Assembly (NCBI GenBank): GCA_010645155.1 | Contig: JAAGOF010000023.1 | Span: 454,245 to 518,244 of the forward strand | Length of the DNA: 64,000 nucleotides | DNA from: Tigriopus japonicus | Taxonomy: Eukaryota; Arthropoda; Copepoda; Harpacticoida; Harpacticidae | Direction of reading: 5' to 3' | In this document: positions 608-51,735 of the stretch, in pieces | Layout: each line of letters starts with the position of its first letter | Position numbering within the stretch: the stretch's first letter is position 1 | Made by a program: the position numbers and the translations under genes | Notes under the pieces: generated by a model | Seen by the model: the letters and a program-made list of their open reading frames with translations, nothing else | What the model was told of the DNA's origin: nothing | The model's database searches: none

Positions 608-1705
608 ATGATGGATATTTACGATGACTTGGTAGACGAACAAGACCTTGAATCCAACACCAAGGCCGTAATTGACGACAAAGTCAAAACAAACGATGAA
701 TATGCCACAAAAATATCGGAGGTTGCTGCACTTCTAATGAACCGAGACGTACCGGCGCCAACTACGTCTAATACAAGACAACGAGGCGAAACATCACACG
801 AACATCAATTCAAACAAGTATCCGATATGAAACCGTTTATGCTATGCTCTCATCTGATGCGGAACCATTTGAGATGAGAATCTGGATCTAAAAGTTTCAA
901 GCGTATTACGAAGCATCACATGCAGAGGTACTGACTCTGAACGGCAGGAAGGCTATATTCAAAAAATATCCTCTTTATGCACCTTCGGGAGTGCTTGAGT
1001 TGTCCGATACAATAAACAATAAAAACCTTTCTTACGGCGGACCTTTGTGTTGTCATCGAAGAAGACGTGAAGAAGGCCACCTCAATTGATTGACCCCTCT
1101 TCTCTCGTAGACTGGCTCTTTTCCAAATCAAAAAGGACAAAAGGCCATTTAAGGATTTTGTGGCAGATTTGCGAAGACGGGCACGGGAGGCTGAGTTATC
1201 TTCAATCACCACTGGACAACTTCTCACATTCTTAGCTATTGCTGGTTGTAAAGACGAGATAATCATCTTTGCGAAATTGCGCGAATTAAAAGATCCTAGT
1301 ATGAGCGATCTTTTAGGAAAAGCTGCTCAATTTGAGGGCGTTCTCAAGGATGTTGAATTGCCATCTCCGGTGGTCCAAGCAATTTCAGCAGACGAAATAA
1401 TTGCAGCCGTTGCCGCAAGCTGTGGTGGATGCGGATACCCACACCCACGAGAGAGATGCCCGTTTCGCGATAGGCCATGCTATTCATGTGGAAAGGTCGG
1501 TCATATCCAGAATCTATGCCGACAGCGTAGCCCGTCCGGTGGAAGCAGCTCTAATAGTTCCACTAACCGAGGACGCCCTCGTGAACGGACACGACGTGGT
1601 TCTCCTGGAATACGTTACGATGGAGAAAATAGTCGATCCCCATCTTTCTCGAAGGTAAACGTCATCAACACATATCCACGCTCCTCGTGCATTGGAATTG
1701 ATTGA
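608..1705 (+). pseudogene. Gypsy-A gag (broken)
   Basis: Gag remnant. Two open stretches, 608-877 and 1160-1705, lie in the same frame and are separated by stops and a shifted segment. The second half ends with a CX2CX4HX4C zinc knuckle (CYSCGKVGHIQNLC, near 1477-1520) followed by a basic Arg/Ser-rich tail, typical of a nucleocapsid that binds element RNA. The gag end overlaps the pol opening at 1692 in a different frame, as expected if pol was made by ribosomal frameshifting. Confidence 0.8.
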
Positions 1706-4700
1706 AATAACAACTACAAACAATACCGTCCTTAAGGCTTTACCCGACTCCGGGGCTGCATGTACAGTCTTTTCTCAAAAGGCTTGTCCCAAAGGAACAT
1801 TATTGGAATCATCCCACACAATCCTCAGCGCCGCCAACGGTACAATCTTGAGAAATTTGGGAAAATTTATCTTTCATGGTAGTGCCAAGGGTGGACCAAC
1901 AACCAAGATATCAGCAATCATCTCACCTGACGTTGCTGAGCCACTTATTAGCAAGGGGGATCTCATGACTTTGGGCATCCTGCCTCCTGATTTCCCCAAA
2001 GTTCATCATTGCCAAAACATGTTCGCAATCGTTCATGGCGAGATGAGGAACCCGAGAAAAGAAAATGTCATGCCCCTTTCTCCGTCAAATACCAAGAAGA
2101 TCGCCCCTTTGAAGCCCGATCAGGTGAGAAACATCGAGAATGCGATCAAGCGCATCGACCAAAAGGTGGAAACTGATGTAAAACGGATCCGTCAATTCCT
2201 CTTTGAATCGTCTGATGTCATGGTCTCTTCACTGGGTGAAGCTGCTGGATCCATGACGGGTTTCGACCCTATGAAAATTGAAATCAACACCAATAAAGAT
2301 TTTACTCCTTACCATGTTACAACTGCCCGATCAATACCTATACATTACGAGGAGCTGTCTAATACTCTTTGTCGAGAGCTCGTACGGGCCAAAATGATGA
2401 TCCAATGCCCAGAGAATACAGAGTGGTGTGCTCCTGCACATTTTGTTCCAAAACCTAATGGTAATGTTAGAATGGTCATTGATTACCAAAAGTTGAACCA
2501 AGCCACGAAGAGACCCATTCATCCATTTTCTTCAGTACATGATTTGATGCACCAAATATTACCCGAAAGTCAGTGGTTTGCGAAACTCGATGCTGTCCAT
2601 GGGTATTTTCAAATTCCGTTGGATGAGGCCTCGTCATACTTGTGCGCGTTTCTCTTGCCCGATGGCAAATATCGCCCTCTTGTTGCTCCAATGGGCTGGA
2701 AAGGCAGTGGTGATGTCTTTAGTTTAAGGACTGACCTCGCACTGGAAGAATTAAAACGATAAAAGTGGATAGCAAAAATAGTCGATGACATCTGTGTACA
2801 AGCTATTACCTTATCATAATTACTCGATCGTCTTGAGATGGTCATAAAAAAATGTCGCGAACATGGAATCAAACTCTCTATCAACAAGTTTGAGATGGGA
2901 CAATCCGTCAAATTTGCTGGATTTATTGTGTCTTCCACCGGCATGAAACCCGATCCCGCAAAGCTCTCCGCTATCCGGGATTTTCCAACCCCAAAGTCAT
3001 TGACTGACTTGAGATCGTTTCTCGGATTGGCGAATCAACTTGGAGCGTTTATTCCTGATCTCCAACATTCAACCGTTAAGATGAGAGAATTGTTGAAAAA
3101 GACGTCTTCATGGTTGTGGCTCCCCGATCATGAATCCGAATTCCACAAGGCAAAAGAGTTGCTAACATCACATGCAGTAGTTCAACCCTTTGATCCTAAA
3201 TTACTCACCCAACTCCTTACCGACGCATCTCGCTTGCATGGACTTGGGTTTGCCCTCATTCAGCGAGAGAGAGCCATGGATGGCAAGGGAAAGATTTGCT
3301 TGATCCAATGTGGCTCCTGTTCCTTGTCACCTGCTCAAAAAAATTACGCGATAATTGACTTGGAGCTCAGTGCAATATGGTTCGCTGTGCAAAAGTGTTC
3401 TTACTATTTACGAGGGATGCCGAATTTTGAAATCATCACGGACCATCAACCATTGCTGGGAATCTTTGGGAAACCCCTTGCAACACTGAACAACGCACGT
3501 CTACAGAGGTTATGTGAGAATTTGAGCCAGTTTTCTTTTTCAACAACGAGGAGTAAGGGTAAAAATCACCTTATTGCCGATGCTCTCAGCCGTGCTCCTG
3601 TTTTCGCCGCTGACCCATCCCTTGATGTGGCGCTTTGTGCAGCCATATCCAAGACCGACACCGCGTTCAATATTATCAGGAATCATATCGATGATGAGTA
3701 CGCTCGTTTACGCGGATGTGTACAGCGAGGTCATCCTCTACCTCGTCCACTCTACCCTTATGGAGACGTTGTCGATGAACTTTAGATTGATGATGAGTCT
3801 GGAATAGATCTAGTTCTTGTCGGAGACCGTTTGATTGTCCCGCGTCAAGCTCGGCAGCGAATCCTGGACTTATTGCATCTATCTCATTCTGGAATTACGA
3901 AAACGTACGAGTTGGCTCGTCAGTTGTACTATTGGCCCCGAATGAAAAACGAAATCGAGCTCTGGATCCGAAGATGCTCTGTCTGTGTCAAAAATTTACC
4001 ATCCTTACCTATGGAACCTATTTTATCAGCAATTGACACCGCCAGTGCCCCAATGGACGCTGTGTCAGTAGATCTTTTTGACCTAGAAGGCAAAACGTTC
4101 CTCGTCATGGTCGATCGCTTCAGTGGTTTTCCGTTTGTGTGCAGAATGAGTTCGCTCTCGACCAATGCTGTCTGGAAAAAGTTGAAAGCATGGTTCCATG
4201 AGGTGGGCTTCCCAAAACGCCTCAAGTCCGACGGTGGTCCACAATTTCGACAAAAATTTGCGGAAATTTGTACGGAATATGGCATTATTGATGAACAGAG
4301 TTCACCATACAATCCTCGGAGTAACGGGCTAGCTGAAGCCGCCGTGAAGCAAATCAAGGGCCTCCTGAAAAAGATTGGCGGCCATGATAGTGATGCCTTC
4401 CGCTCCGCCTTACTCGAGTGGCGCTGCACTCCCCGTGCGGATGGTTTTGCACCGGCCACTTGATTTTTCGGCCGACAAGTTTATACTTTGTTGCCATCTG
4501 CACGCTATGCGGAATTTCTGCCAGAAGCAACACGACGAGATTTCGCCGAAGCCCGTAAAATGGCGGACGATCGGCGTGTGAGTGCGGCCTCAGGTCATTC
4601 ACTGGCACCCTTGCGGGTCGGAGACTGTGACACGTCCAACATCCCATCGATAAAGATTGGTCATACTGCACCGGTCTCATCAAATCTATATCCGCGTCGG

Positions 4701-4910
4701 GCCACTCGTCCGCAAGATTTGTCCGCAATTGACGATTCTTACGTGCCGCTTTATCATCCCCGGACTCCCCATCGGCGGAACCATAAGAAGCAACGGAAAC
4801 GAATTTGGCTCCAACCGGTCCTCAAAGAAGCGCGCGCAATCGTCGAGTCCGATTTGATTTATGAGTATGGAAAGCTGAATACCATAAGTAATTCACAAAT
4901 AACATCGTGA
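1692..4910 (+). pseudogene. Gypsy-A pol: protease, RT, RNase H, integrase (nonsense-mutated)
   Basis: One reading frame runs the full length, interrupted only by in-frame stops at about 2760, 2817, 3783 and 4461. Protease is marked by DSGAACTVF near 1747. RT shows KLDAVHGYFQIPLD and the metal-binding IVDDI between the first two stops near 2780. RNase H follows, with TDASRLHGLG, DLELSAIW and ITDHQPLL. Integrase has an HHCC zinc finger (3886-4005) and a complete D,D,E triad (AVSVDLF, KSDGGPQF, NGLAEAAV). The frame is kept and only stops have accumulated, so decay is by point mutation rather than large deletion. Confidence 0.87.
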
Positions 4911-5104: not shown

Positions 5105-7339
5105 GCTTGATGGTAAAGGACCAACAAGATCGACGTGCAGGTTGGCGCATTTTGCTGATGGTGGACAATTGAAGTGATGGAGAGGAGTTTTGGTGTGGAT
5201 AGTCACTTTGGAGGCTTGGCAATGGACACATGAGTGCACCCAACTAGCAATATCACGTGGCATGGATGGCCAGATATAAAGGCCTGCTATGAGCCTGGGT
5301 GTTGCCTTAGTTCCAGGATGGGACATGTTGAGAAGAACATCAAAAACAGGGCAAGTCATGGATGTTGGAACCACTGGTTGAGGACGAGGAGCTCTTGTGT
5401 CTACTAGGACCTTGTAGTCGTCAATTTTGTAGCTCGTCCAATGCTCTGGCCACGTCGGATCGGTGGTGTCATGAACCATACCAATGGTTTTCTGTGCCAC
5501 TGCAATGCGTTCCGTCAGATCATTCACCGGGGCCATAGCACTAATGGGGTTACGCGACAATGCATCGGCAACCACATTTGTGGAGCCTGAAATGTGGCGA
5601 ACATCAGTGCACAATTCACTGATGTAGTGGAGCATGCGTGCGGCCTTTTTGTTCTTGGACATGTCGGGCGTTGAGCCTGGTTGGAATGCAAACGAGTGTC
5701 TGTGGTTTGACGTGGTTTGTGGTCTGTGAGGATGTGGAACAGGTCGCCACAGATTCCGACGATGAGGTGCTCAAACTTCCTAACTGACAGAAAGATTGCC
5801 AACAACTCCCTGTCATAGGTAGAGTACCTCTGTTCACGGGGTTCCAGCTTCTGGCTGAAAAACCCTATTAGGCGCCATCCATCATCCATTTGTTTTTCCA
5901 GGACCGCACCGACAGCAGAGTCAGATGCATCCATGACCAATCATGTAGGAAGGTTAGGAGTGGGGAATGCGAGGGTGACTTGTTTCGCGAGGGCCTGTTT
6001 CAATGCTGCAAAGGCCTTTCATGCCGGATCTGTCCAAACAAGGGGCTGCTTGGCCAACTTGCGTGCTCCGTGTGAAGAATGGGGCCTCAACAGACCGTAG
6101 AGTGGGCAGGCAACATGAGCAAACTGAGGTGTGAATCGTCGATAAATATTGGCTAGCCCCAGAAACTCCTGGAGCGACTTGACAGTTACAGGCTCTGGGA
6201 ACAATTGAATAGCAGCCACCAGAGTGTCAAGCGTATGTGCTCCTGCTGCAGACAAGGAGAAGCCCAGGAACGTAATTGTGTCTTTGCCGAGCATCATCTT
6301 AGTTTTATTGATAAGGAGGCCATACGCGCGAAGACAGTCAAACAAGGCCATCAAGTGGTCCTGATGCTCTTGAGGAGAGGTGCTTGCAATGAGGATGTCA
6401 TCGACATAACAATAAATGCCTCGGAGTCTGCGCAACACCTCATCCATGAATCTCTGGAAGGATTGGGCAGCATTCTTCAGGCCAAATGGCATCCTTGTGA
6501 ACTCAAACCCCAAAGGGAGTGGCTATGGCTGTCAGAGGGATGGAGTCCTTATCCAAGGGGATCTGATGGAAAGCACGGATGAGGTCGACTTTGCTGAAGA
6601 ATGTGGCGCCACGCAATGAAAGGCAAAAATCCTCAACGTGTGGCAAGGGGTAGCTGTCGTTCTCGGTGATGGCGTTGAGCATGTAAAAATCCCCGCAGGG
6701 GCGCTACGTCCCATTGTGTTTATTCACCACCTGAAGAGGGCTGGAAAGTTCACTACAGGAAGGCTGAAGAATACCCAAATCGAGCAAACGAGCCACCTCC
6801 GACTTTTTTGCAATATCTAACTTTGACCCAAAATACCACCGCGGGGGCGACTTGAACATACGGGCGTTGGGTTTAAGGCGGAGGGAGTGTACGTAGTTGT
6901 GCTTAACAGGGGGCATTCGGCCAGGTGGCTCCAGTGTGGCCACCAAATCGGAATGTTTATTGAGTAATCGTGAGAATGGGTTATGAATCTCCTCGACAGA
7001 GAGCACGGACACTACATTACACGCAGCTCCTCAGAGCTCATGGAACTGACGTGTGTCAATCAGTTTATTCCCAACACAGTCGACATATATGTGGTGTTCA
7101 GCTAAGAAATTAAAGCCCAAGAGGATGCTCTGTACGTCTGCCATGAAAAACTTATGCTTGAAGACTCGTCCTAAGCCAATATCAAATTCGATCTCACGAT
7201 AGTCATACTTGTTGACAGGGGATCCTGATGCAGTTTTGAAAAGGTCAGTTCGAATGGGGTTCTGGCGATCATGGTCAGAGGCAGGGGCCATACTCCACGT
7301 GGCCCCACTATCAACGACCACGGTACGGCCGGTGAGCAC
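5105..7339 (-). pseudogene. Gypsy-B pol: protease, RT, RNase H, partial integrase (broken)
   Basis: Minus-strand segments in order: protease with VVDSGATWSM (7339-7031); N-terminal RT (7012-6704, same frame after one stop); central RT with the catalytic YVDDI (6513-6019, shifted frame); RNase H with VMDASDSAVGAVL and TDHKP (5940-5524); then the end of RNase H and the integrase zinc-finger region with HVDLVGPLP (5662-5105, shifted again). The integrase is cut right after the first catalytic Asp region, where Gypsy-A begins, so the catalytic core is missing. Confidence 0.85.
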
Positions 7340-16843: not shown

Positions 16844-17044
16844 GCGAGAGAAATGCCTAACCCGGTTGCGTCGAATCATGAAATGATTTATAAAACTAGC
16901 TTTACACAGGACCATCTATTGACTACCATGTACCATTATAATGTTTATGTTCGTTTTCCATATCTTCTTGTATCTCTCCCTCTATTTCTATTTTTATCTA
17001 TTTAAGATGGACTATCTGACTGCAAGCAGTAAAGGGTTGGGTGT

Positions 17045-20022
17045 GTGGAAGATCTTGGTTATCTCAAACTCTTGATCCAGATGGAAGGCTTAAACGGTGA
17101 ACTGGGATGTCTGAGCGAAGCATCCGTACTTCAAGACCTTGGCTATTGCAACGAATTGATTCCAGGTGAGCAGTGGCTCGTTTCTCTCAATGTTCGGTCC
17201 ATCGTTGCAAACAAATTTAAGCTAGAGGATTCGCTTTTAAATAAGAAACCAAAAATAGTTGCCTTACGAGAGGTGTGGCAAGCCAACAGCGTGAATTTGA
17301 CGTTTGAGAATTATAATTCTGAATTTGAAACACGAGTTGGACGCAAAGGAGGGGGAGTGGGAATATTTCTTGAAAAATCCATCTCGTACTCAAAGCTAAA
17401 AAATCTCTGTTTAATTTCTGAATCTTGCGAAATCATTGCAGTTGAGACAGACAAACAACTCATTTTTTCTGTGTACATTCCTCCCGGTGCCAATACTCAT
17501 AATGTGATTAAAGAGCTAGAAAACCTTTTAACTGTATGCAAGTCCAAAAAAAATTTCTTATGCGGAGACTTTAATATTGATTTTTCGAAAGATACGTTTC
17601 GGACCAATTCATTCAATGATCTTATGATGAATCTAGAATTAGTGCCAGCCATAAACCAACCAACCAGAATAACTCCATGGTCTAGTACTTCAATAGACAA
17701 TATTTTTAAAAATTGGAAAAGAAATGTGAAGTGCGGAATATTTGTCTGTGATATTAGCGACCATTTAGCACCATTTATTGCAATTGGAAAGGAGAAAACT
17801 GATGCATTTCCAAAAGACGACTACCCAAAAAGATGCACAGGCCCTAAAAACCTTGGAAATTTGCGCAAGTTGTTAACTTGCAAGTTGTAACTTAACTAAG
17901 GATGTTCTTTGGAATATTTCGGAAAATGATCCCCTGGGGTCTTTCCACAACTTCCAAAACCAACTTTTGAATGCCTTCCACAAATCTTGTCCAGTAGTGA
18001 AACATCAGTGAAACATCAGATGAAATCAAGAAAAAAATCCAATCTCTGGATGTCAATAGGCCTTCTTAAATCCCGTACACATAAACAAAAATTCCTAAAC
18101 AAATTTCATCAGAATCCAACTGAGGTGAATCAAAGGAGGCTCCGAGAATATTCCAAAATATACTTTAATCTCATAAAATCGTCGAAGGGAAAATATTGGC
18201 AAAATTACTTTGAATCACATAGGAGTAACTCTAGTTCTTTGTGGAAAGGGACAAAAAGCTTGTTAGGTTATAAAAGAACAAATAATGAAGCCCCCTCGAA
18301 ACTGAAAATTGACAATGCTGTGGTAGAAAATTCTCATGATATCGCTAACTCATTCAACAGGTATTTTTCATCCATTGGAAAAACCTTGTGTGACGAAATA
18401 TCTATCGATAGTGAAAATTATTTAGAACAAATGCCTGAAAACAGTAGCTCACGTAAATATTATTTTAAAGTAGTTAATTACGTAGATATTCTAAAAATAA
18501 TCGACAAACTGCCGAGTAAAACTAGTCATGGTTTAGATGAAATTTCTAACATTGTTTTAAAAGCCATTAAAAGAGAAATTGCCACCCCACTAACAAGATT
18601 AATAAACATATGTTAATAAGTGGATATATCCCCAGTGACTGGAAAGCGGCTAAGGTACTACCTTTATTCAAAGGTGGTGACAAAGAAAACATTTCAAATT
18701 ACCGACTTATCAGCATATTATCTTCGTTGTCCAAAGTACTTGAAAAAGTTGTGTACAGCCAAATTTTGGCCCCTTTTTCGGAAAACCACATAACGAAATT
18801 TCAGTTTGGTTTTAGACCGAAACACTCAACTCTCCATGCCATCCACAACTTCTTGCAAAATATCTCAAACCACAGTGACTTCAGATACTCAGTCGGAGTA
18901 TTTATTGATTTGAAAAAGGCATTTGACACAATTAACCACAAGATATTAATAAATAAAATGCAAAGCTACGGGTTCAGTAGTAACATTTTAAAATGGATTG
19001 AAAATTATGTGCAAGATCGAAAGCAAGCGGTAAAAATTGAAAACACTTTTTCTGAATTTTCAACCATAACGTGTGGAGTGCCGCAAGGGAGCATCTTAGG
19101 CCCACTTTTGTTCTTAATCTATATCAATGACCTACCAAACGTGACTGATTTTGACGTGACGATGTTTGCAGACGATACAACCTTACAATTCTTTGGTGAT
19201 AATTTATAAAAATGAAAATCGAGGTAAGTCAAAATCTAAAAAAGTTGGCAAATTGGCTACGAGTTAATAGACTTGTACTAAATGTAGACAAAACTAAGTC
19301 GATATTGTTTAGTCCCCGAAATAAAAAGCATGACTTCAAATTGGAGCTAAATGGGATAATGATACAACAAGTTGGATCGCATTGTCATGAAAAGAATCTC
19401 AGATTTCTCGGTTTAACGCTTGACGATCAGCTAAATTGGAAAGATCGTATCAAACAAGTAAATAACACTGTTAGGAAGACTATGTTTACACTCTTTATGG
19501 CTAAGAAAGCAATCCCAACGAGCCTAAAGTTGACACTTTATAACGCACTAGTCAAGAGCCGAGTACGGGGTTGAATTCTTTGGTTTGAGTTCGGCTCTAA
19601 AAAGTCTAGTCATTCTCCAGAAACGAATTGTCAGATGGATTGTAGGTGTTAAATCCAGATCCCACACTAGTCAAATTTTTAAAAACATGGAAATTTTAAA
19701 AGTTGATGATTTATTTAAGGTAAATCAATTAAAATTTATGTTCAGTTGTTTTTATGAAGACGTACCTGACACAATTAACTTATTTACTTACAAAAAACGT
19801 CATTTACGTTTTAACATACGTCTAGTCAAAATATCCTGGTATCAACGACTCCCGGTGATTTCTTTTCCAATTTCTTGGAACAATTTTACGACTGAGAAAG
19901 ACATAAAAGTTTCTGATTTGCCCAAAACATTAAAGCGATGGACCAAATTATTGACAGAAATAATCACTAGCTCGTACGAAACGAAATGTAATCTTTCTGA
20001 ATGTTACTCATGTGCCAAATAG
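17045..20022 (+). pseudogene. LINE-A ORF2 (endonuclease and RT, frameshifted)
   Basis: An APE-type endonuclease occupies 17045-17890 (VSLNVRSI, KPKIVALREVWQ, GRKGGGVGIFL, GDFNIDF, SDHLAPF). RT follows in 17987-18616 and 18610-19209, with FQFGFRPKHST, FIDLKKAFDTINH, GVPQGSILGPLLF and the catalytic FADDT. The C-terminal part continues at 19212-19574 and 19585-20022 and ends in a Cys-containing tail (ECYSCAK). At least three frame changes interrupt it. Confidence 0.82.
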
Positions 20023-30728: not shown

Positions 30729-32684
<1,956 letters not shown>

Positions 32685-33051: not shown

Positions 33052-33089
33052 CCCAAATATCCATTTGTCAGTGAACGCAATTTAGGCTC

Positions 33090-33095
33090 TTTATT
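33090..33095 (-). terminator. Polyadenylation signal overlapping the RTN4IP1 stop
   Basis: On the minus strand the end of the coding region reads AAATAAAG: AATAAA contains the TAA stop (33093-33091). If used, the 3' UTR would be only about 20 bp. Confidence 0.4.
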
Positions 33096-34714
33096 TCTCG
33101 GACTGAACGCGAAGTACGATTTTACCCCGTTGACCGACTGAATTCATGTGATTCAAAGCCAAGGGTAGATCTTGAAAGTCGAATGTTCGGTCTATCACAG
33201 GTTCCAGCTGAAAAAATACATATAATAAGAGCTAGTAGTAAGATACACGAGTTATGGATTAAGATCTTGACAAGAGAGAGACAAAATCAGGCTTTGAAAA
33301 TTACGTATTGCAAACTGAAATTTGTCCAAAGTCTCAATAAATTTCTTTAAAAAACTTGGTCACTTATACTAAAGCCGTTCAAAAGACATGTTTTCTTTGA
33401 TCCATTGAGAGCCCATCCCTAGTAAATTAGGGTAATGCACTTCTGGTAACTTTCAAAGAAACATGATGGAAACGCAACCTTTTCCCCCAAATTTTCCAAG
33501 TAAAATAATTGTTGTTAATCTTTACCTTTTTTTGTTCAACGAGTAAGTTCATAGCTTTTAATGCGCCTGGGATAGGCCCAAAATAGCCCCACCGAACGGT
33601 ACCGCCTGAACTTGTGAGTGATTGGAAATTGGCTCCCACCAATTTCGAAAACACCTTCACACCCCCACGAATTAACCCTTGATCATCCGTGGCGGACAAC
33701 AAAGGACTATTTAAGGACACGAAACAAGCCTCAGGACTCGATTTGAGCAACGGGGTGAAGGTTTCGGCCTTCTTCTGTCCACTACAATCCAGGATCACAT
33801 CAAAGCTGAAAGACACACTTAAACACATAAAGTAAAACTTTCCACCACACCATATAAATTCGAATAACTACCCTGCCAACTTGGTCAAGTTCGACGCATA
33901 ATCCGGATCTTGATAACTCAAAACGTGATTGGGCTTGAACTTTTGGACAAATTCTCGGTTAGCCGAGCTGCACACCGCCACAACCTAAAACCTCTCATCA
34001 ATCATCTTTGTTTTTAACGCAAGACTTTAAAGAGGCTTACTTGACAATCCCAAGCATGCAGGAATTGAAGCGCAATGTGTCCCACACCCCCGGAAGCGCC
34101 CAAAACTAAGACTTTCCGAGATGGTTGGGTCGTTTCACTGTCCAATCCAGCCGTGAAGGTCAAAGCCGACCAAGCCGTCAATCCGGCATAAGGTAAGGCC
34201 GCAGCGGTTTCGAAGCTCAAACTCGGTGGTTTCAAATGGGTCTGCGACAAAATCTCCAAAACCGAAATCCCTCAATCATTCGTTTGGGCGACTCATTTTT
34301 TACCAAATATTTCGATGCCACCACGAAATCGGTCCACGTGCCCGAGCTCGAAGGAAAAACGGCGCCGTAAACGGCGTCCCCGGGACGAAAGTGGGACGCA
34401 CATCCGCTTCCGGCATACTCCACGGTTCCAGCAAAGTCCCGTCCCAAAATCAAGGGTAGTTCCGGGGATTTTTCGGATTTCAAACATCGGGAAGTAGCCA
34501 AGATTCGTCGACCATACCCATGGGACATGGCCGTATCCATGGGATTGAGGGACGCGGCATGGACCCGAACTAATAAATCGTCGGGATGACGAACCACGGG
34601 TCGGCTTATCGGGTCCAACTTCAAGGCTGAAGGACCTTCAAAGGCGGTCAAATGCCAGGCCGAGAACGAACGACCGACATTGGATAAAATAGATACACTT
34701 TTAAGGCTCAACAT
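33091..34714 (-). CDS. RTN4IP1: Reticulon-4-interacting protein 1 homologue, mitochondrial
   Basis: Five exons on the minus strand: 34714-34304, 34241-34041, 33984-33872, 33805-33526 and 33207-33091. They give 373 residues (human about 396), and all introns are GT-AG (62, 56, 66 and 318 bp). It is a zinc-less medium-chain dehydrogenase/reductase of the quinone-oxidoreductase group. The N-terminal half has LVRVHAASLNPMD and LGRDFAGTV with RPGDAVYGAV. The Rossmann nucleotide-binding loop LGASGGVGHIA lies near 184-194, followed by FDVILDCSG. The Ser/Arg-containing N terminus (MLSLKSVSILSNVGRSF) looks like a mitochondrial import signal. The mammalian protein is an NAD(P)H oxidoreductase needed for coenzyme Q synthesis and complex I. 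FAM76 converges on it. Confidence 0.92.
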
Positions 34715-34943
34715 GATGATGATGATGCCAATGTTTAGGTGAAATCCGCAGACGTTGGCATCATTAAACTATGAATTAAAAATTAGATGTCATGATTTTA
34801 ACTTAACAAAACATTAATGATCATTGTCAACACACCCTTTGGCGCAGGTTATCCGTGAACGACCTTTGAAGGCTAATTTGAGGTGGATGTTTGGCTTTTC
34901 CAGGGGGCCTACTACGGCATATACATGACTGTTTGCTTCAGCT

Positions 34944-40023: not shown

Positions 40024-40915
40024 TAGGGCTGTAAACGAGTCATTTTTTATGACTCGCGAGTCAAGAGTCATTTTTCCGATGAACCAATGACTCGCACTCG
40101 ACTTCTACGAGCCTTCTGGTACAAAAGCTAGTTTCAAAATGACTTGCAAGTCCTTTTCTCACATAGATACGACTCACGCGTCTGTTTCACGTAAGAGGCA
40201 TTATTTTTAGAAGCATTACTCATTTTACATTGTAAGTAATTGACCATTGGGTCTTCACATTTGTTTGGACACGACCTTCCCACCGTTTCTCCAGAAAAGT
40301 TACGGACACAATTGGTCACTCACAAATGCTCACTAATGTTCTGAGTTGCAAAAAGTATTGCAAAACTATGCAAAGTTTAAAAATAATTTCATACACTAAT
40401 TTTGACAGTTAACAACTCGTTTCATTGATCATCACTATGTGACAGAGCAAAACAGGGTCTTTTTGCAGTTGTCTTACCATACGTATCTAAGCAGAAATTG
40501 TTTTTACCCTTCACTCTCTCCTTGAAAAAGCACAACAATGCCATTCTTGCCCGAAATGGTCTCACTCTATTTGATGAAGACCTAAGGCTTCAGTATTGCC
40601 AAAATGGCCAGAACTCGCCTATTTATTGGCTTTTTAAAACAAAATTAAGATTAGATAGTAGATAGTTAGATAGATAGATTAATTATTATAGAGTAGGCAC
40701 TATATTTTGGGGTTTGAAGTAAGGATTTGCTTTTCATGACAACGATTCGAAATTCATTTCTTTTAAAGTTAAAATTGTTTGGTTTGGTCCTACTTCCAAA
40801 TACTCGTGATAGACTCTAGTCTTTGTACAGATTTGGAGTCTTTTCCAATTTTAAGGAAAAATCGGTTTTTGATCCGGGTCCTACGAGTCATTGTAAAGAC
40901 TCGTTTGCAGCCCTA
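40024..40915. mobile_element. hAT-type transposon (GACTCG family) beside the OST4/GTF2H5 promoter
   Basis: Ends TAGGGCTGTAAACGAGTC and GACTCGTTTGCAGCCCTA; flanks GCCGTTCG (40016-40023) and GTCGTTTG (40916-40923) agree at 6 of 8 positions. The left 90 bp repeats ACTCG motifs. No transposase. It ends about 75 bp before the first GTF2H5 splice donor, so it lies in or next to the core promoter. Confidence 0.75.
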
Positions 40916-40990
40916 GTCGTTTGTCTGTCTCGTCCGGTCTCGGCTCATTGCGGATTGGTGGCTCAGGTAGACGACAAGAAAAAAAGTCAG
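40916..40990 (+). promoter_or_regulatory. Putative shared 5' non-coding exon and splice donor
   Basis: A strong donor CAG/GTGAGT lies at 40990/40991 and the acceptor TTGTTTTAG ends at 41249. The exon has no ATG. Splicing would join it 12 bp before the GTF2H5 start and remove all of OST4. The transcription start is unknown. Confidence 0.5.
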
Positions 40991-41004
40991 GTGAGTGTTC
41001 GTGA

Positions 41005-41061
41005 ATGGTTACGTTTCACATCTTGGTCCATCCATCCAACCATCCATTCATCCATCCATAA
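41005..41061 (+). other. 18-codon upstream reading frame before OST4
   Basis: ATG at 41005 to TAA at 41059-41061, two bases before the OST4 ATG. Much of it is a CCATCCATT microsatellite (41026-41060). In an unspliced transcript it would be met before OST4. Confidence 0.4.
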
Positions 41062-41063
41062 TT

Positions 41064-41216
41064 ATGATCACCGATGTGCAATTGGCTACGGCCGCCAACT
41101 TCATGGGCATTGGCATGTTCCTCTTGGTGGTCTTGTTCCATTTGATCTCTGCCAATGATCCCGCCACCTCCAATCCCACTCAACACACTTCCAACACCAA
41201 GAACAAATCCCATTGA
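41064..41216 (+). CDS. OST4: Oligosaccharyltransferase subunit OST4 homologue
   Basis: Fifty residues in one exon. The N-terminal 30 residues match animal OST4 closely: [15 protein letters not shown], then the single membrane segment [17 protein letters not shown] hydrophilic Asn/Thr-rich tail (about 18 residues) is longer than in the 37-residue human protein. OST4 is a tiny integral subunit of the endoplasmic reticulum oligosaccharyltransferase that stabilises the catalytic subunit during N-glycosylation. The gene lies wholly between the splice donor at 40991 and the acceptor at 41249 that serve GTF2H5, 45 bp upstream of the GTF2H5 ATG. Confidence 0.9.
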
Positions 41217-41261
41217 CTTTTTGATACATCTATATTCATATTGTTTTAGTTGACCATCATC

Positions 41262-41489
41262 ATGGTGAATGTGATCAAGGGTGTGCTGGTCACGTGTGAT
41301 CCGGCCATGAAGCAGTTCTTGCTCCACTTGGATGAGAAAATGGCGTTGGGATCGCGATTCATTACCCAAGATCTAGATGACACGCATCTATTCATCAGCG
41401 AGGATGCCGTGGGACAATTGAAGAACCAAATCGATGACCTCATGGACAAGATCTCCATTCCCGTAGTCGAAGGGTCCCAACACAACTAG
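41262..41489 (+). CDS. GTF2H5: TFIIH subunit 5 (TTDA/Tfb5) homologue
   Basis: Seventy-five residues (human 71). [20 protein letters not shown], then DLDDTHLFI and a C-terminal helix ([12 protein letters not shown]), match animal GTF2H5 throughout. It is the smallest TFIIH core subunit, stabilises p52 and stimulates the XPB ATPase in nucleotide excision repair. The ATG at 41262 is chosen because family members start MVNV. An acceptor AG at 41249 lies 12 bp upstream, so a 5' non-coding exon is likely. OST4 precedes it on the same strand. AATAAA follows the stop by 50 bp. Confidence 0.92.
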
Positions 41490-41539
41490 ATGTCCCCGGA
41501 TCTCTTGACACTTTCACTCTTTGGTCAGATTTGTTAGAA

Positions 41540-41545
41540 AATAAA
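41540..41545 (+). terminator. Polyadenylation signal of GTF2H5
   Basis: AATAAA, 51 bp after the stop codon. It would also end any OST4-containing transcript. Confidence 0.6.
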
Positions 41546-42759
41546 CGTGATTAACGCAGAAAGAATTGTCATCCGACTTTAAGCGATTATCTAAGGTTTC
41601 ATTTTAATTAAGTATTGGGTGAAAAGCAATGCAACCTGGATGGAGTCAAGATATTTTGTCAAATGTTTTTTATATGTGTGAGACGATTACCAAGTTGATT
41701 TTCTTTTTAATCCAAGAGCTTTGAAAACGTTTGGAATGAAAAGTTACCATAAAAAGAAACTTATACCAACTAATATAACTAAAATCGGCCAAGTAGTAAC
41801 GAAATGTTACATGGATAGTTGGAGGATTTGCCGACCGATAGCTCGTCTTTAACTTTAACTAGGCATGGGGAGTTGTTCACGCCCTTCAGAACGTGGAATT
41901 GCCTGATTTGACTTAAATATTTAAGGAATGATTGTCATTTTGTTCGCTCAGTTACTTTAGTCTCAGATAAAGAAGCTGTGACGGCCAAAATTGCTTTGAA
42001 AATAACAATAAACTCGAACAAATACATGTATTCCTTAGATTCTGGATAAGCTACTTCTTGTTTTCACCAGAACCTGGGCAATTTAGTTTAGGGCAGTTCA
42101 GGAACTTTCAAGGTGGAACGGGATAAAAATGTGTTAAATATTTGCAGGTGTTGGTAAATTGTCACCGGATCAAGGTTTATTGTTATGAAGAAAGTATAGC
42201 GGATCATGAGATGATGAAATTGGAACGACCACAATCCAATTCAAATTAACACGATTATATGTTGAAGGCTTTTTTAAAATAGATGCAACTTTAAAACATT
42301 GAGACGCAAAACAATCGCATAAAAATCATCCCGTACTTTTTGAGGAAGTAAATGGATATAATCCTAAATTAAACACACGTAAGTTCTGAACTTAGAAAGC
42401 AAAAGATACAAAACAAGTAATTCCAAAGCTAAACAGAATTGGATGAATAAACTTTTATTTGACTACACCTGATTGCTGAAATTCAGGAACCGGGCCAACT
42501 TTTGTGTCCTTGCAAATTTTTGACCGATCCCTCAATTTATTTAAAAAATAACCAAAACCATTATTCTTTTTAACAAGCTCTCCAAAGTTAAAGGTGCTCT
42601 CTTTTGGCAGTACTGATGCCGATCAGCTGATTCACGACGCCCATACAAATACAATGCACACATATTTCAATTACCAAAACAACCAGCATCTTAAAATCTG
42701 CACAAACCCAAAACACTTCCCATCTTGAAAATTGCGGCTTGGCAAATTCTTCAGATATC
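41546..42759. other. Intergenic between GTF2H5 and CDC26
   Basis: No further gene or repeat recognised; presumed CDC26 promoter at its right end. Confidence 0.5.
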
Positions 42760-42990
42760 ATGATTCGTCGTCCTCCCACCCGATTGGAGCTCAAGATGGA
42801 CGATATCAAGGAATACGAGCGGATGAAGTCCGAATCTCGGAAGAACAACTTCGGCAACTCACCCACACACAACAGTACCATGGCTAATGAGAGTGGCTCT
42901 CTCTCAAGTGCTGAACCCAGTTCCACCGAAAAGAGGAACGCCTTGTACACCAGGATTGGATTCGATCCCAAGCCTCGAAAGCCTTCTTAG
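42760..42990 (+). CDS. CDC26: Anaphase-promoting complex subunit CDC26 homologue
   Basis: Seventy-six residues in one exon (human 85). The N terminus MIRRPPTRLELKMDDIKEYE matches the family's conserved region, which inserts into the TPR groove of APC6/CDC16 with an N-acetylated Met. The middle is Ser/Asn-rich and variable, and the C terminus RIGFDPKPR matches the conserved end (RIGYKPQPK in human). It stabilises the APC/C ubiquitin ligase that drives mitotic exit. An upstream in-frame TTG was not used because family members begin at this Met. No neighbour suggests an operon. Confidence 0.9.
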   Translation: MIRRPPTRLELKMDDIKEYERMKSESRKNNFGNSPTHNSTMANESGSLSSAEPSSTEKRNALYTRIGFDPKPRKPS

Positions 42991-47130: not shown

Positions 47131-48348
47131 TTCAAGGCAAAGTTGAGGGTTGAGGGATTGGAAAAAGGGAATCAGGAAGAACGAGGAAAAAAGGAAAACC
47201 AGAAGAAGACGAACAAGAAAAGCAAAATGAGAAGAACAGCCAAGAATGGGAAGTTCGTGAACAAATACTACCACAACATAGGAAAGGGAAGAGACGGAAC
47301 AAAGGAGAGAATCTTGAAGATCGGATTGTACAAATAGGAACTACAAGAACATGATGACAAATTTGAAAAAAAGACCAACTCGATGAAACGGAGAAGTTTG
47401 CTATGACAAGAGCAAGGAGCAAGCACATTCGGAATGATCCCACCCAAGGTGTGAGCGATGGGTCACCAAAGCCGAGAGGCCACGATGATCCCAATATCGG
47501 TGTGAGAGGCCAGTCCAACTATACAAAGTCCACAAAAAGTGTCACGACCGCAGATATTCCAAGATACTTCGGAAATGGGGTCGCACCAAGAATTGATGCC
47601 ATGGACAGTATCAATTTCTTCGCTCGACTGCAAGAATCAAGACGGGATGAGGAAAGTCTGGTCGAACCGTTTATTGCGGATGACCTTGGTTATTGCGATG
47701 AGTTGGTTGAAGGTGAGCAATGGTTAGTTTCCGTAAATATTCTGTCCATCTTAGCAGACAGATTTAAGCTAGAAGAAATGTTATTGAAACGAAAACCAAA
47801 AATTGTGGCACTGCAAGAGGTGTGGCAAGTCAACAACGTTCATTTGTCTTTTGAAAACCATTATCTTGAAGTTATGACCCGTACGAGTCGCAGAGGAGGT
47901 GGAGTTGGCATTTTAATTCATAATGCTTATTCCCACAAGGAGAGGAAAGATCTTTTCGCTAATTTCAGATGATTACGCAGTAATTTCAATTGATCATCCC
48001 AAATCCATGATCATATCGATCTACAAAATTGTCTAAAGACAATTTTCGAAATGCAATTGCTGAACTTGGAAATCTAATTAACGTATGCAAGGATGACTCA
48101 AGCCAGGATTACTTTCAAAATACGGACTGGGTCCGATTAGTACAATGGAAATTCAACGGAACAGTATATTTGTTGCAAAAACCTTACATTTTAGTACAAT
48201 GATCGGACCCAGTGTGTATTTTTGAAATCCGTCCTGAAGTACAGTGGTTCCTGACGTATGCAAGTCGAAATTAATATATCTCCGTGGGGACTTTAACATT
48301 GACTTTTCCAAAGACACATTAATAACTTCTAAGCTATATGACCTAATG
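47104..48348 (+). pseudogene. LINE-B: relative of LINE-A, ORF1 end and endonuclease
   Basis: The Lys/Glu-rich ORF1 end (about 47116-47337), then the duplicated GATGATCCC/GGTGTGAG phrase (47435-47515), then the endonuclease N-terminal part (47403-47972: LGYCDELVEGEQWLVSVNI, KPKIVALQEVWQ, SRRGGGVGI). Further endonuclease sequence with GDFNIDF lies near 48290 on the far side of a 166-bp MITE. The copy is lost after about 48348, where a hAT element begins. RT is absent. Confidence 0.8.
48088..48253. mobile_element. 166-bp hAT-type MITE, copy 1
   Basis: Starts CAAGGATGACTCAAGCC and ends GTGGTTCCTG, with an inner inverted repeat ACTGGGTCCGAT/ATCGGACCCAGT. It splits LINE-B between ACGTATG (48081-48087) and ACGTATGCAAG (48254-48264). 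LINE-A has the corresponding uninterrupted site CTGTATGCAAG at about 17532, which confirms the insertion. Confidence 0.82.
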
Positions 48349-48356
48349 ATTACTGA

Positions 48357-49512
48357 CAGCGTAACCAATTGTTGAAGATCAAAAAGAGCTAAAAATCTTA
48401 GTTAACACGCAAATTTTCGAGCTAAAAGAGCTAACTTTTCTTGGAAAAAGAGCTAAAAAAGACACATTAATTAAAATCATTGATTCGGGCCAATGGACGA
48501 AGGGAGCAAAATCATAGTCGATATCGAATGGAGGTGTATTTGGTCTATCTAAAACCGGTAACAAGGATTTGTTTCAGTGTTCATTTAAGCATTTATTTTG
48601 TCTTTTAAAGTCGATAAGTTTCTCATGACAGTGTTCTTTTTTAATTCAGCTGTTCGGCAAGAACACATCAGACATTTTTTGCAGGCTTGCCAATTGTAAC
48701 CTCTTTAGATCTCAATGGGCTTGAAAAAGTCAGATGAAACCGATGGCCATGCTCTTGATTCGCAAACCATGTAGAGTAACTATTCATAAAAGTAGCAAAA
48801 TACATACAATAATGCTAAGTGATATAGTGCAATAGTGCCAAAAACGCTTTGTTTTTAAAGATTGGCCCCTTCAAGAGTGAGTGTGTGTATTTAGGTTTAG
48901 TAAGGGGTTTATGAAATGTTCAAGTGTAAATGTGCATCTGTTCAAGGACGAGATAGGAAAACAAACACAATACAAAATACAAAAGACAATATACAGGAAG
49001 ACCTGGATACTGCTACCATTGGCATTGAAGTTGTTCTTCAACTTCTTGATTGGCCAGAGAAAAATCAACTGAAACCAGTTTATTGCTGGTAATTCAAAGC
49101 TTGCATGCTTGATTTCAAATTGATTGAATGAGCTCTTTGTCAGTTAGAATAGTTTGAAGCATACCTACTTTTCCCACTTTTACAATTGTCCATTTTTAGT
49201 CTGAACCTGTACATCAAACAAGAATATGAAAGCCTAGCCAAAAGCTACATTTTTTTGCTTTAGAAGTAGGTTGATTCTTTTGAAAATCCTACGTATTTTC
49301 AAAATGACCAATTTTGAAAAAAACTCATTTGTTTGGGGTAGAAAATCATGCAACTTGGAAAATTGTGAAAAGGAGCCATAAATCCCAAAAGTCCTTAGAA
49401 AATAAGCTAAAAATTGGTCAAAAAATTGAAAAGACGTAAAAGAGCTAAATGTTTCCAATTTGGAGCTAAATTTCCAAAATATCGGGAAAAGGAGCTAAAT
49501 TTGGTCACCTTG
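48357..49512. mobile_element. hAT-type transposon (GAGCTAAA family)
   Basis: Ends CAGCGTAACCAA and TTTGGTCACCTTG, flanked by a perfect 8-bp duplication ATTACTGA (48349-48356 and 49513-49520). Both ends repeat AAAAGAGCTAAA. No transposase is visible in the 1,156 bp. Confidence 0.8.
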
Positions 49513-49520
49513 ATTACTGA

Positions 49521-50025
49521 TATGTTTCGAGGTGGATTTTTGGCACAGTTTTGCCATTTTGGTTTTTAGGATCAAAAAGCTGAGCACAACTTAACTTCCC
49601 AACAAGCAATAAACCTAATCTGCCAAAAAATGTGGCAGCACTGCCAACAAATCCATAACTATATCCACTGATGAAACTCGAAATCGAATTAGTTCGAGTG
49701 TTGCCAAATCGGTCTTTTTGGGTCTTTTCAAAAAGTTCAATACAACCTTCCTTAATGAACAATGATAAACTTCCGAGTAAAAAATGGCAGCACTCCCGGT
49801 TCGAAACACATCACTAGTGCTTACAACTGGACCCTTTCATGAACAAAAATATCACACATTTTGGAGCCATGCTTTTGATTGAAAATCACTCCGATCAGAT
49901 TCGATATGAACAAAGAAACAACTTCAACAAATTCCACGAAACAATTATTGAGTTATTTTAACAAACCTATGCTGAGTTGGCCAACCACTGCAACAGGGAA
50001 ACAATGAATTCTCCCTGTCCACTTA
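49521..50025. other. Intergenic, no feature recognised
   Basis: Short GGCAGCACTGCCAA-like segments hint at transposon scraps, but nothing is delimited. Confidence 0.4.
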
Positions 50026-50032
50026 TCCCATT

Positions 50033-50198
50033 CAAGGATGGCTCAAGCCAGGATTACTTTCAAAATATACACTAGGTCCGATTAGTACAATGGAAATTCA
50101 ACGGAACAATATATTTGTTGCAAAAACCTCACATTTTAGTACAGTAATCGGACCTAGTGTGTATTTTTGAAATCCGTCCTGAAGTACAGTGGTTCCTG
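50033..50198. mobile_element. 166-bp hAT-type MITE, copy 2
   Basis: Same length and about 95% the same as copy 1. Flanks TCCCATT (50026-50032) and TCCCATT (50199-50205) are the target duplication. Confidence 0.82.
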
Positions 50199-50710
50199 TC
50201 CCATTTCATGTTTTCGTGCCACAATTTTCGTAGTGCGGAATAAAGACAATCAATCAAGAAAGTAGTTTCATTTTTTGCAACGAGGCAAGACGTCTATGAA
50301 AATTGTATCAACAAATGATATTTTTGTCTTGAAAACAACACTACTCCATTTTTGTTTGTTTTCGTGCTCCTATAAGATTAACTCTTTTCAATCAAGTTAC
50401 TTTACTTTTGTGTTGTTTTGAAAATTGGTTGATGATAATTGTTGGATAGAATAGATAAAAATAGATAACTTTAAATCCATGTTGCCCTATGTGGCCTTTC
50501 AGATCATAACATTCTTGAGATAGGGTCGACCATTACTTAAAAGCTGGCGAGCTCTTGAGTTAAACCCGCACAAAAAGTGGGTCTGGCAAAGTTCAAGTTC
50601 AAAGAGGAACATTGGCTTCTTATTGTTGACAGATTTGAAGAGTTGGACTTGATTTCCATTCTGAAGCAGGAGCCATAAATGGGCTGATTTCCAGTTTTCA
50701 GGACGTTTGT

Positions 50711-51735
50711 TTGTCTTTGTGTATTCCAGAAACGGCGCAAAAAGGTGGGCCATTGTCTAGAATTCCAAAGTTTAGAAAGAAGTTGTTCAAAAGGAGTTGT
50801 CAGTTTTCGAATAGACTTCGGCGTACTTCAAATCCAGTTGTTGTAGCCAGCCTCCAAAGCAAATTGGATGCGGTCCAATCAAAGATTAGGGCCTCCATTG
50901 ATTTCGATCAGTTAGAGAAGGAAAGTAGAGTGATCCAGGAGGTTAAGAGTAATCCAAAGGCGTTTTTCTCTTTTGCAAACACAAAGAGAAAAATAAAGCA
51001 TCCATTAGGACCTTTTGAGGTCGACGGTAAAACCGTCAATGATGGCGAGGTTTTGGCCAATATGCTTGGAGATCAGTTCTCAAGTGTATTTTCAATTCTG
51101 AAAAGGGTTGGCAGAGCAGGCCATGACTGTAGCAATGTTGTTGATGAGACTGGCATTGATAGTCAGGACAATCAATTGGAGGATCTGGTAGTCACAGATC
51201 AAGATGCTTTTGAGACCATCAAGAGCTTAAATCTCTCGAGTTCTCCTGGACCTGATGGTGTGACATCTCAGTTTCTGATGAAATGTTCACAGATTCTTGC
51301 CCCTGTTTTCTCGTTGTTGATGGGTCGCATTTTAGATCAGGGCAAGTTTCCCTCTTCTCTAGAAGTAGCTCATGTCGTTCCAATTTTTAAGGGCGGAGAT
51401 AAGTCACTCCCTAGTAATTATAGCCCCATTTCCCTGACTTCCAGTATTGCAAAGGTCTTTGAGAAGATCATGAAGTCCAAGCTTGTTGAGTATTTGGAAG
51501 TCCATGATATCATTCCCCCAGGGCAGCATGGGTTTTGAGCCCATCTTGTACAATCAGCCAATTGGTTGACCATATCGAGCAAATCATTAAGGGCCTGAAA
51601 GTCACGAGCCAGTTGATGTAGTCTATTTTGACTCTGCATGTCATGTATGGTATCACGTCAGGTGTTCCACAAGGTTCAATTTTAGGTCCGCTCCTGTTTA
51701 TTCTCTTTATTGCTCCTCTCCAGAAGCTTAGAACA
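50711..51735 (+). pseudogene. LINE-C: truncated RT
   Basis: An open frame to 51538 with the RT N-terminal region: PGPDGVTSQFLMKCSQ, VAHVVPIFKGGDKSLPSNY and SPISLTSSIAKVFEKIM. After a stop, a further segment at 51655-51720 encodes SGVPQGSILGPLLF. The block between them with the first catalytic Asp is deleted, and the YADD region is missing. It differs from LINE-A, so this is a separate family. Confidence 0.82.

Follow-up and report, generated by a model that had tools for sequence, protein, structure and literature searches.

A single candidate intron of 259 nt seems to tie together two small genes of the 64-kb window (the whole stretch of DNA analysed here, to whose first nucleotide all positions refer unless stated otherwise): spliced transcripts would give GTF2H5, and intron-retaining transcripts of the same promoter would give OST4b, an OST4 paralog that lies entirely inside the intron. 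We put the probability of this full model at roughly one half. Its first part, a splice from 40990 to 41250 that produces GTF2H5, appears quite probable from the anatomy of the locus. If the model is true, keeping or removing one short intron would decide between two unrelated housekeeping-type proteins, and a duplicated gene would have persisted inside the intron of another gene without a promoter or an acceptor of its own. Because the genome also has a canonical OST4 (on C8), the locus would then more likely concern a spare or specialised OST4 than N-glycosylation supply as such. Pairs of tiny genes with such small ORFs are easily missed, or mis-annotated as one gene. The features of the locus are listed in Table 1.

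Table 1. Features of the OST4b-GTF2H5 locus, with positions in the window
Feature	Position	Strand	Basis or placement
Transposon copy, terminal inverted repeats TAGGGCTG...CAGCCCTA	40024..40915	.	directly 5' of candidate exon 1
Candidate shared non-coding exon 1	40916..40990	+	between transposon end and donor
Candidate GTF2H5 5'UTR intron, 259 bp, GTGAGT...TTTTAG	40991..41249	+	donor and acceptor scores, length
uORF, 18 codons plus stop, inside candidate intron	41005..41061	+	ends 2 nt before OST4b ATG
OST4b, 50-aa OST4 paralog nested in candidate intron	41064..41216	+	Pfam, human OST4, dN/dS
GTF2H5/Tfb5, 75-aa TFIIH subunit, intronless coding sequence	41262..41489	+	Pfam, human GTF2H5
AATAAA poly(A) signal	41540..41545	+	only such signal in 41217-41700

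An earlier note on this DNA had placed OST4 and GTF2H5 45 bp apart on one strand; the ORF coordinates are exact in this respect and Pfam matches confirm both identities. The downstream ORF matches the Pfam family Tfb5 (PF06331, E 5.5e-28, profile positions 1-63 of 67) as well as human GTF2H5 (E 2.1e-22), and a protein search with it returned 443 matches, with a Lepeophtheirus salmonis protein among the best 120 of them. A search for conservation in relatives with the GTF2H5 alignment gave 26 pattern matches in viral contigs and 15 in genome contigs, none of which was a relative. GTF2H5 has one match genome-wide, so that this locus must supply the protein. Its AUG is preceded in unspliced RNA, counted from 40918, by six others, at 41005 (the uORF), 41064 (OST4b), 41074, 41103, 41115 and 41155, those at 41103 and 41115 being in the OST4b frame. 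All six lie inside the candidate intron, and none precedes GTF2H5 in the spliced form counted from the same position. Three of the six have A at -3, G at +4 or both; the GTF2H5 AUG has both. With six AUGs upstream, unspliced RNA would therefore yield GTF2H5 poorly, whereas spliced RNA would be excellently suited to it, a start after the transposon being assumed, and the predicted spliced transcript would be the likeliest source of the protein if exon 1 does start there. Nothing speaks more strongly for the splice than this: a single-copy gene would stand behind six AUGs unless the intron is removed.

The same AUGs bear on the idea that the pair works without this splice, either through separate starts, with transcription of GTF2H5 beginning within the OST4b ORF, or through an unspliced dicistronic mRNA translated by leaky scanning or reinitiation. 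There is a parallel in the green-algal OST4_FAM32A locus, whose conserved transcript carries two ORFs, with OST4 in first place, and which is served by leaky scanning (PMC11892635, in the part of the text that is accessible). The likeness lies in OST4 being the first of two ORFs, but the algal locus differs in its leaky scanning, its partner gene and its lineage, and the copepod ORFs are parted by a splice site. Leaky-scanning first ORFs are described in that same part as AUG-poor, whereas here the first ORF and its leader would confront ribosomes with six AUGs to be bypassed, half of them with one or both of the bases given above. The near-perfect donor would also stay unexplained, and we consider either form of this idea quite improbable.

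The weights used to score splice sites are general metazoan consensus frequencies and were not fitted to this genome. By this consensus score the donor CAGGTGAGT at 40991 ranks second among the 3,224 plus-strand GTs of the window, in which CAGGTRAGT occurs once on the plus strand and not at all on the minus strand, and a donor this strong would be found by chance in 40918-41063 with a P of about 0.5% (about 1 in 220). The acceptor ending at 41249, 12 nt before the GTF2H5 ATG, has a score of 7.0 and ranks 143rd among the 3,592 plus-strand AGs of the window. It is the top AG in 40918-41490, narrowly above one at 41466 inside GTF2H5 (7.0 vs 6.8), and since an acceptor this good would fall in the 45-bp gap by chance in about 10% of cases, it is unremarkable taken alone. 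Both sites are thus present where the earlier note had seen a strong donor before OST4 and an acceptor behind it. The reference set consisted of six introns of the window, three from FAM76 and three from a zinc-binding-dehydrogenase-like gene; their lengths are 72, 375, 63, 56, 66 and 318 bp (range 56-375 bp), their donor scores 4.0-8.8 and their acceptor scores -0.4 to 9.8. The candidate intron falls within these ranges in length and acceptor score, and its donor score of 12.3 is above all six. The candidate intron, with credible splice sites at both ends, encloses a complete ORF on the same strand, that of OST4b. The proposal that splicing selects GTF2H5 finds good support in this anatomy, which combines the donor, the acceptor shortly before the ATG, the size of the intron and the removal of the six AUGs.

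Both reference genes have features of their own. The FAM76 gene (30729-32684) has three short introns, and its spliced translation is continuous (Pfam FAM76, 2.6e-77). In the zinc-binding-dehydrogenase-like gene (33060-34768, minus strand), which we take to be RTN4IP1-like, the frame of the first exon differs from that of the next coding stretch, a break that may be an assembly error, a missed intron or a sign of a damaged gene.

On its 5' side the locus is bounded by a transposon copy of about 890 bp that abuts candidate exon 1. This copy is one of 43 matching places genome-wide, many of which start at the same end. Its inverted ends align, and its flanks, GCCGTTCG and GTCGTTTG, match at 6 of 8 positions, which makes them an imperfect 8-bp target duplication; from its ends, we take the element to be hAT-like. 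Given where the transposon ends, exon 1 can be at most 75 nt long unless transcription begins inside the transposon, and there is no ATG in 40918-40990. Elsewhere in the window, the open frames at 1094-4910, 5524-6522, 17033-20022 and 47367-51538 resemble pieces of retrotransposon proteins, as judged by eye.

In the model that we prefer, a promoter just 3' of the transposon copy would yield a pre-mRNA whose exon 1 is short and non-coding, and removal of the 5'UTR intron would leave a compact mRNA on which the GTF2H5 AUG comes first. OST4b, as a diverged second OST4 copy within the intron, would have no acceptor of its own. No AG occurs between the donor hexamer and its ATG, in agreement with the earlier note, so that OST4b is out of reach for splicing from the 40991 donor. 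A separate OST4 poly(A) signal is likewise lacking, as had been noted before, the sole AATAAA-type signal in 41217-41700 being the one after GTF2H5. OST4b would then come only from those transcripts, a minority, in which the intron is retained, and ribosomes would get to its AUG either by scanning through the weak-context uORF or by reinitiating behind this uORF, whose position before OST4b on the retained transcript counts against the full model. On such a transcript GTF2H5 would be largely silent behind the six AUGs. As there would be no junction 3' of the OST4b stop and the poly(A) site is common to both forms, the retained transcript could escape nonsense-mediated decay.

Intron retention, by which OST4 had been proposed to be selected, holds as one possible route to OST4b and not as the sole one, as a start inside the intron would serve it equally. 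Such a choice of start site is the main rival to retention: transcripts begun upstream would always be spliced and give GTF2H5, and those begun at about 40997-41063, without the donor, would carry OST4b first in a two-ORF mRNA. OST4b would in this way be expressed without any need for poor splicing of a consensus donor, and a start after 41007 would avoid the uORF. The accessible part of PMC4528330 also speaks of 159 dicistronic pairs in FlyBase, many of which have alternative monocistronic transcripts. The candidate start region is, however, 67 nt long and consists mostly of a CCAT-type repeat, with no core promoter element apparent in the region, and we regard this choice of start site as possible but on balance unlikely. 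Retention itself could go further, with the GTF2H5 intron acting as a regulated either-or switch (under stress or impaired transcription, for example) that would lower the amount of the TFIIH subunit and yield a specialised OST4 variant, from an ORF in which AG would be almost wholly avoided, leaving the spliceosome no alternative acceptor; this extension is speculative and we give it little credence.

The identity of OST4b as an OST4 rests on its Pfam match (Ost4, PF10215, E 1.6e-13, 50.7 bits against a cut-off of 25), which extends over the single transmembrane helix, and on its match to human OST4 (E 2.3e-9). A genome search found a second OST4 at C8:5696818, with an E of 5.6e-14 vs 7.9e-11 for the window copy. 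This C8 gene (L005:1417-1743) encodes a protein of 38 aa that is more canonical than OST4b (Pfam 5.7e-17), and it has a predicted 74-bp 5'UTR intron (donor at 1417, score 6.9; acceptor at 1490, score 7.7; ATG at 1501) and its own AATAAA at 1738 of L005. With a canonical gene of this kind on C8, the claim that one promoter feeds N-glycosylation at the present locus has to be toned down.

Between OST4b and the C8 OST4, 23 of 33 aligned residues are identical and 30 of 99 nucleotides differ, 16 of them at third positions, and the tail of OST4b departs from the C8 protein after residue 33. Over the 33 codons dN is 0.268 and dS 1.076, a ratio of about 0.25 that includes the constraint on the C8 copy. 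When the C8 gene was mutated at random to the same divergence (n=20,000), 11,973 mutants gained a stop and none was both as similar and stop-free. These figures suggest that OST4b evolved as a protein, and the window OST4 is a diverged and probably constrained paralog of the C8 gene. They also weigh on the view of OST4b as a duplicate in the GTF2H5 intron that is decaying or almost silent, with GTF2H5 the only protein made in meaningful amounts. The C8 gene, more canonical and complete in structure, fits such a view, as do the uORF and the missing acceptor, both of which would hinder OST4b, but a frame that has stayed open, the residues kept, the low ratio and the outcome of the random mutants all speak against it, and we find it improbable.

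As to the origin of OST4b, the regions 5' of OST4b and of the C8 OST4 have no detectable homology (their local score is 16.0, and shuffled sequences average 15.4 and reach 22), so that either retroposition or DNA duplication could have given rise to it. A protein search with OST4b returned one match, to the OST4 of the nematode Steinernema, probably because proteins so short are scarce in the database searched. Retrocopies of the spliced transcript were sought as well, and a DNA search of the genome with 40900-41600 gave nothing beyond the locus itself and three short simple-repeat matches.

The candidate intron is poor in AG, with three occurrences (one at 41200 and one in each splice site), and 13 of 3,446 sampled stretches of 259 nt have three or fewer. 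Its AG density is 1.2 per 100 nt vs 4.8-10.7 in the six reference introns. In the coding part of OST4b there is one AG, where local codon usage would predict 4.3 (P 0.034, or 0.008 with uniform codons); the numbers in the C8 OST4 (2, P 0.27) and in GTF2H5 (13, P 0.86) are both unremarkable. The scarcity is due in part to protein composition and to the CCAT-type simple repeat, which makes up most of the 67 non-coding nt 5' of OST4b, and AG-free stretches were found in 582 of 18,268 samples of 67 nt from the window (3%) and in 3,493 of 18,278 samples of 31 nt. It would fit selection against competing acceptors but was noticed after the fact. For intron status we take AG avoidance as weak support and not as proof, given the simple repeat that occupies the non-coding part.

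An acceptor between two ORFs spaced by 45 bp would also be expected if OST4b and GTF2H5 formed a two-gene operon in which the site at 41249 takes a spliced leader. Calanoid copepods possess such a leader, of 46 nt, for which the accessible part of PMC4664967 gives no hits in harpacticoid or cyclopoid data; operons are unreported in copepods as far as the accessible part of PMC7986045 goes. The presence of a strong cis donor speaks against trans-splicing here, as does the result of a leader search of the genome, which covered the CopepodSL and siphonostomatoid cores. No convincing match to either known core was found: the CopepodSL core gave matches with three mismatches only, 20 of them vs 11 for the reversed control, and the siphonostomatoid core gave none. 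The one CopepodSL-like match inspected among the 20 (L008) is part of a three-copy repeat, and an Rfam scan of two adjacent 5S loci on C132 detected 5S only. A known spliced leader is thus unlikely to be present in this genome, and we hold a trans-spliced operon to be very improbable indeed.

Small genes nested in another gene whose promoter they share are a known arrangement, and our candidate is most likely a further case of it. In the tick cholinergic locus, VAChT lies inside the first ChAT intron and the two share a non-coding exon 1 (PMC7524744, accessible part). The likeness to the layout proposed for the copepod locus, as far as that text goes, consists in the shared exon 1, the small complete ORF in the first intron and the choice of product by RNA processing. 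Tick VAChT, in contrast, forms exon 2 and is joined to exon 1 by splicing, whereas OST4b has no upstream acceptor of its own that could join it to the shared exon. ChAT and VAChT also belong to the same pathway, which OST4b and GTF2H5 do not, and the copepod pair is known from sequence alone. For Drosophila, the accessible part of PMC4528330 gives 130 genes with a common promoter and 5' non-coding exons; the pairs described there are backed by cDNA and RNA-seq, whereas OST4b-GTF2H5 was read off the genome. A second Drosophila case, CG31917, is a transcription unit with two ORFs that includes this very TFIIH subunit, TFB5 being the upstream ORF of a dicistronic transcript that is conserved within Endopterygota (PMC2276209, accessible part). 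TFB5 is the first ORF there, however, and GTF2H5 the second here, and the partner differs as far as can be seen from that part. An OST4-GTF2H5 pair was not found in open-licence PMC text; what is new is this pairing, together with a nested ORF for which there is no usable acceptor.

Two other genes in the neighbourhood may be mentioned. A CDC26 ORF (anaphase-promoting complex; 42760-42990) follows on the same strand 1.27 kb 3' of GTF2H5, with a Pfam match of 3e-7, a match to human CDC26 of 8.8e-8 and an acceptor-like TTCTTCAG just 5' of its ATG. Along with the L. salmonis match of GTF2H5, a neighbouring serine protease points to a Tigriopus-like copepod as the probable source of the genome, its best named relative being the protein Tk11670 (72% identity), presumably from the harpacticoid copepod Tigriopus kingsejongensis.
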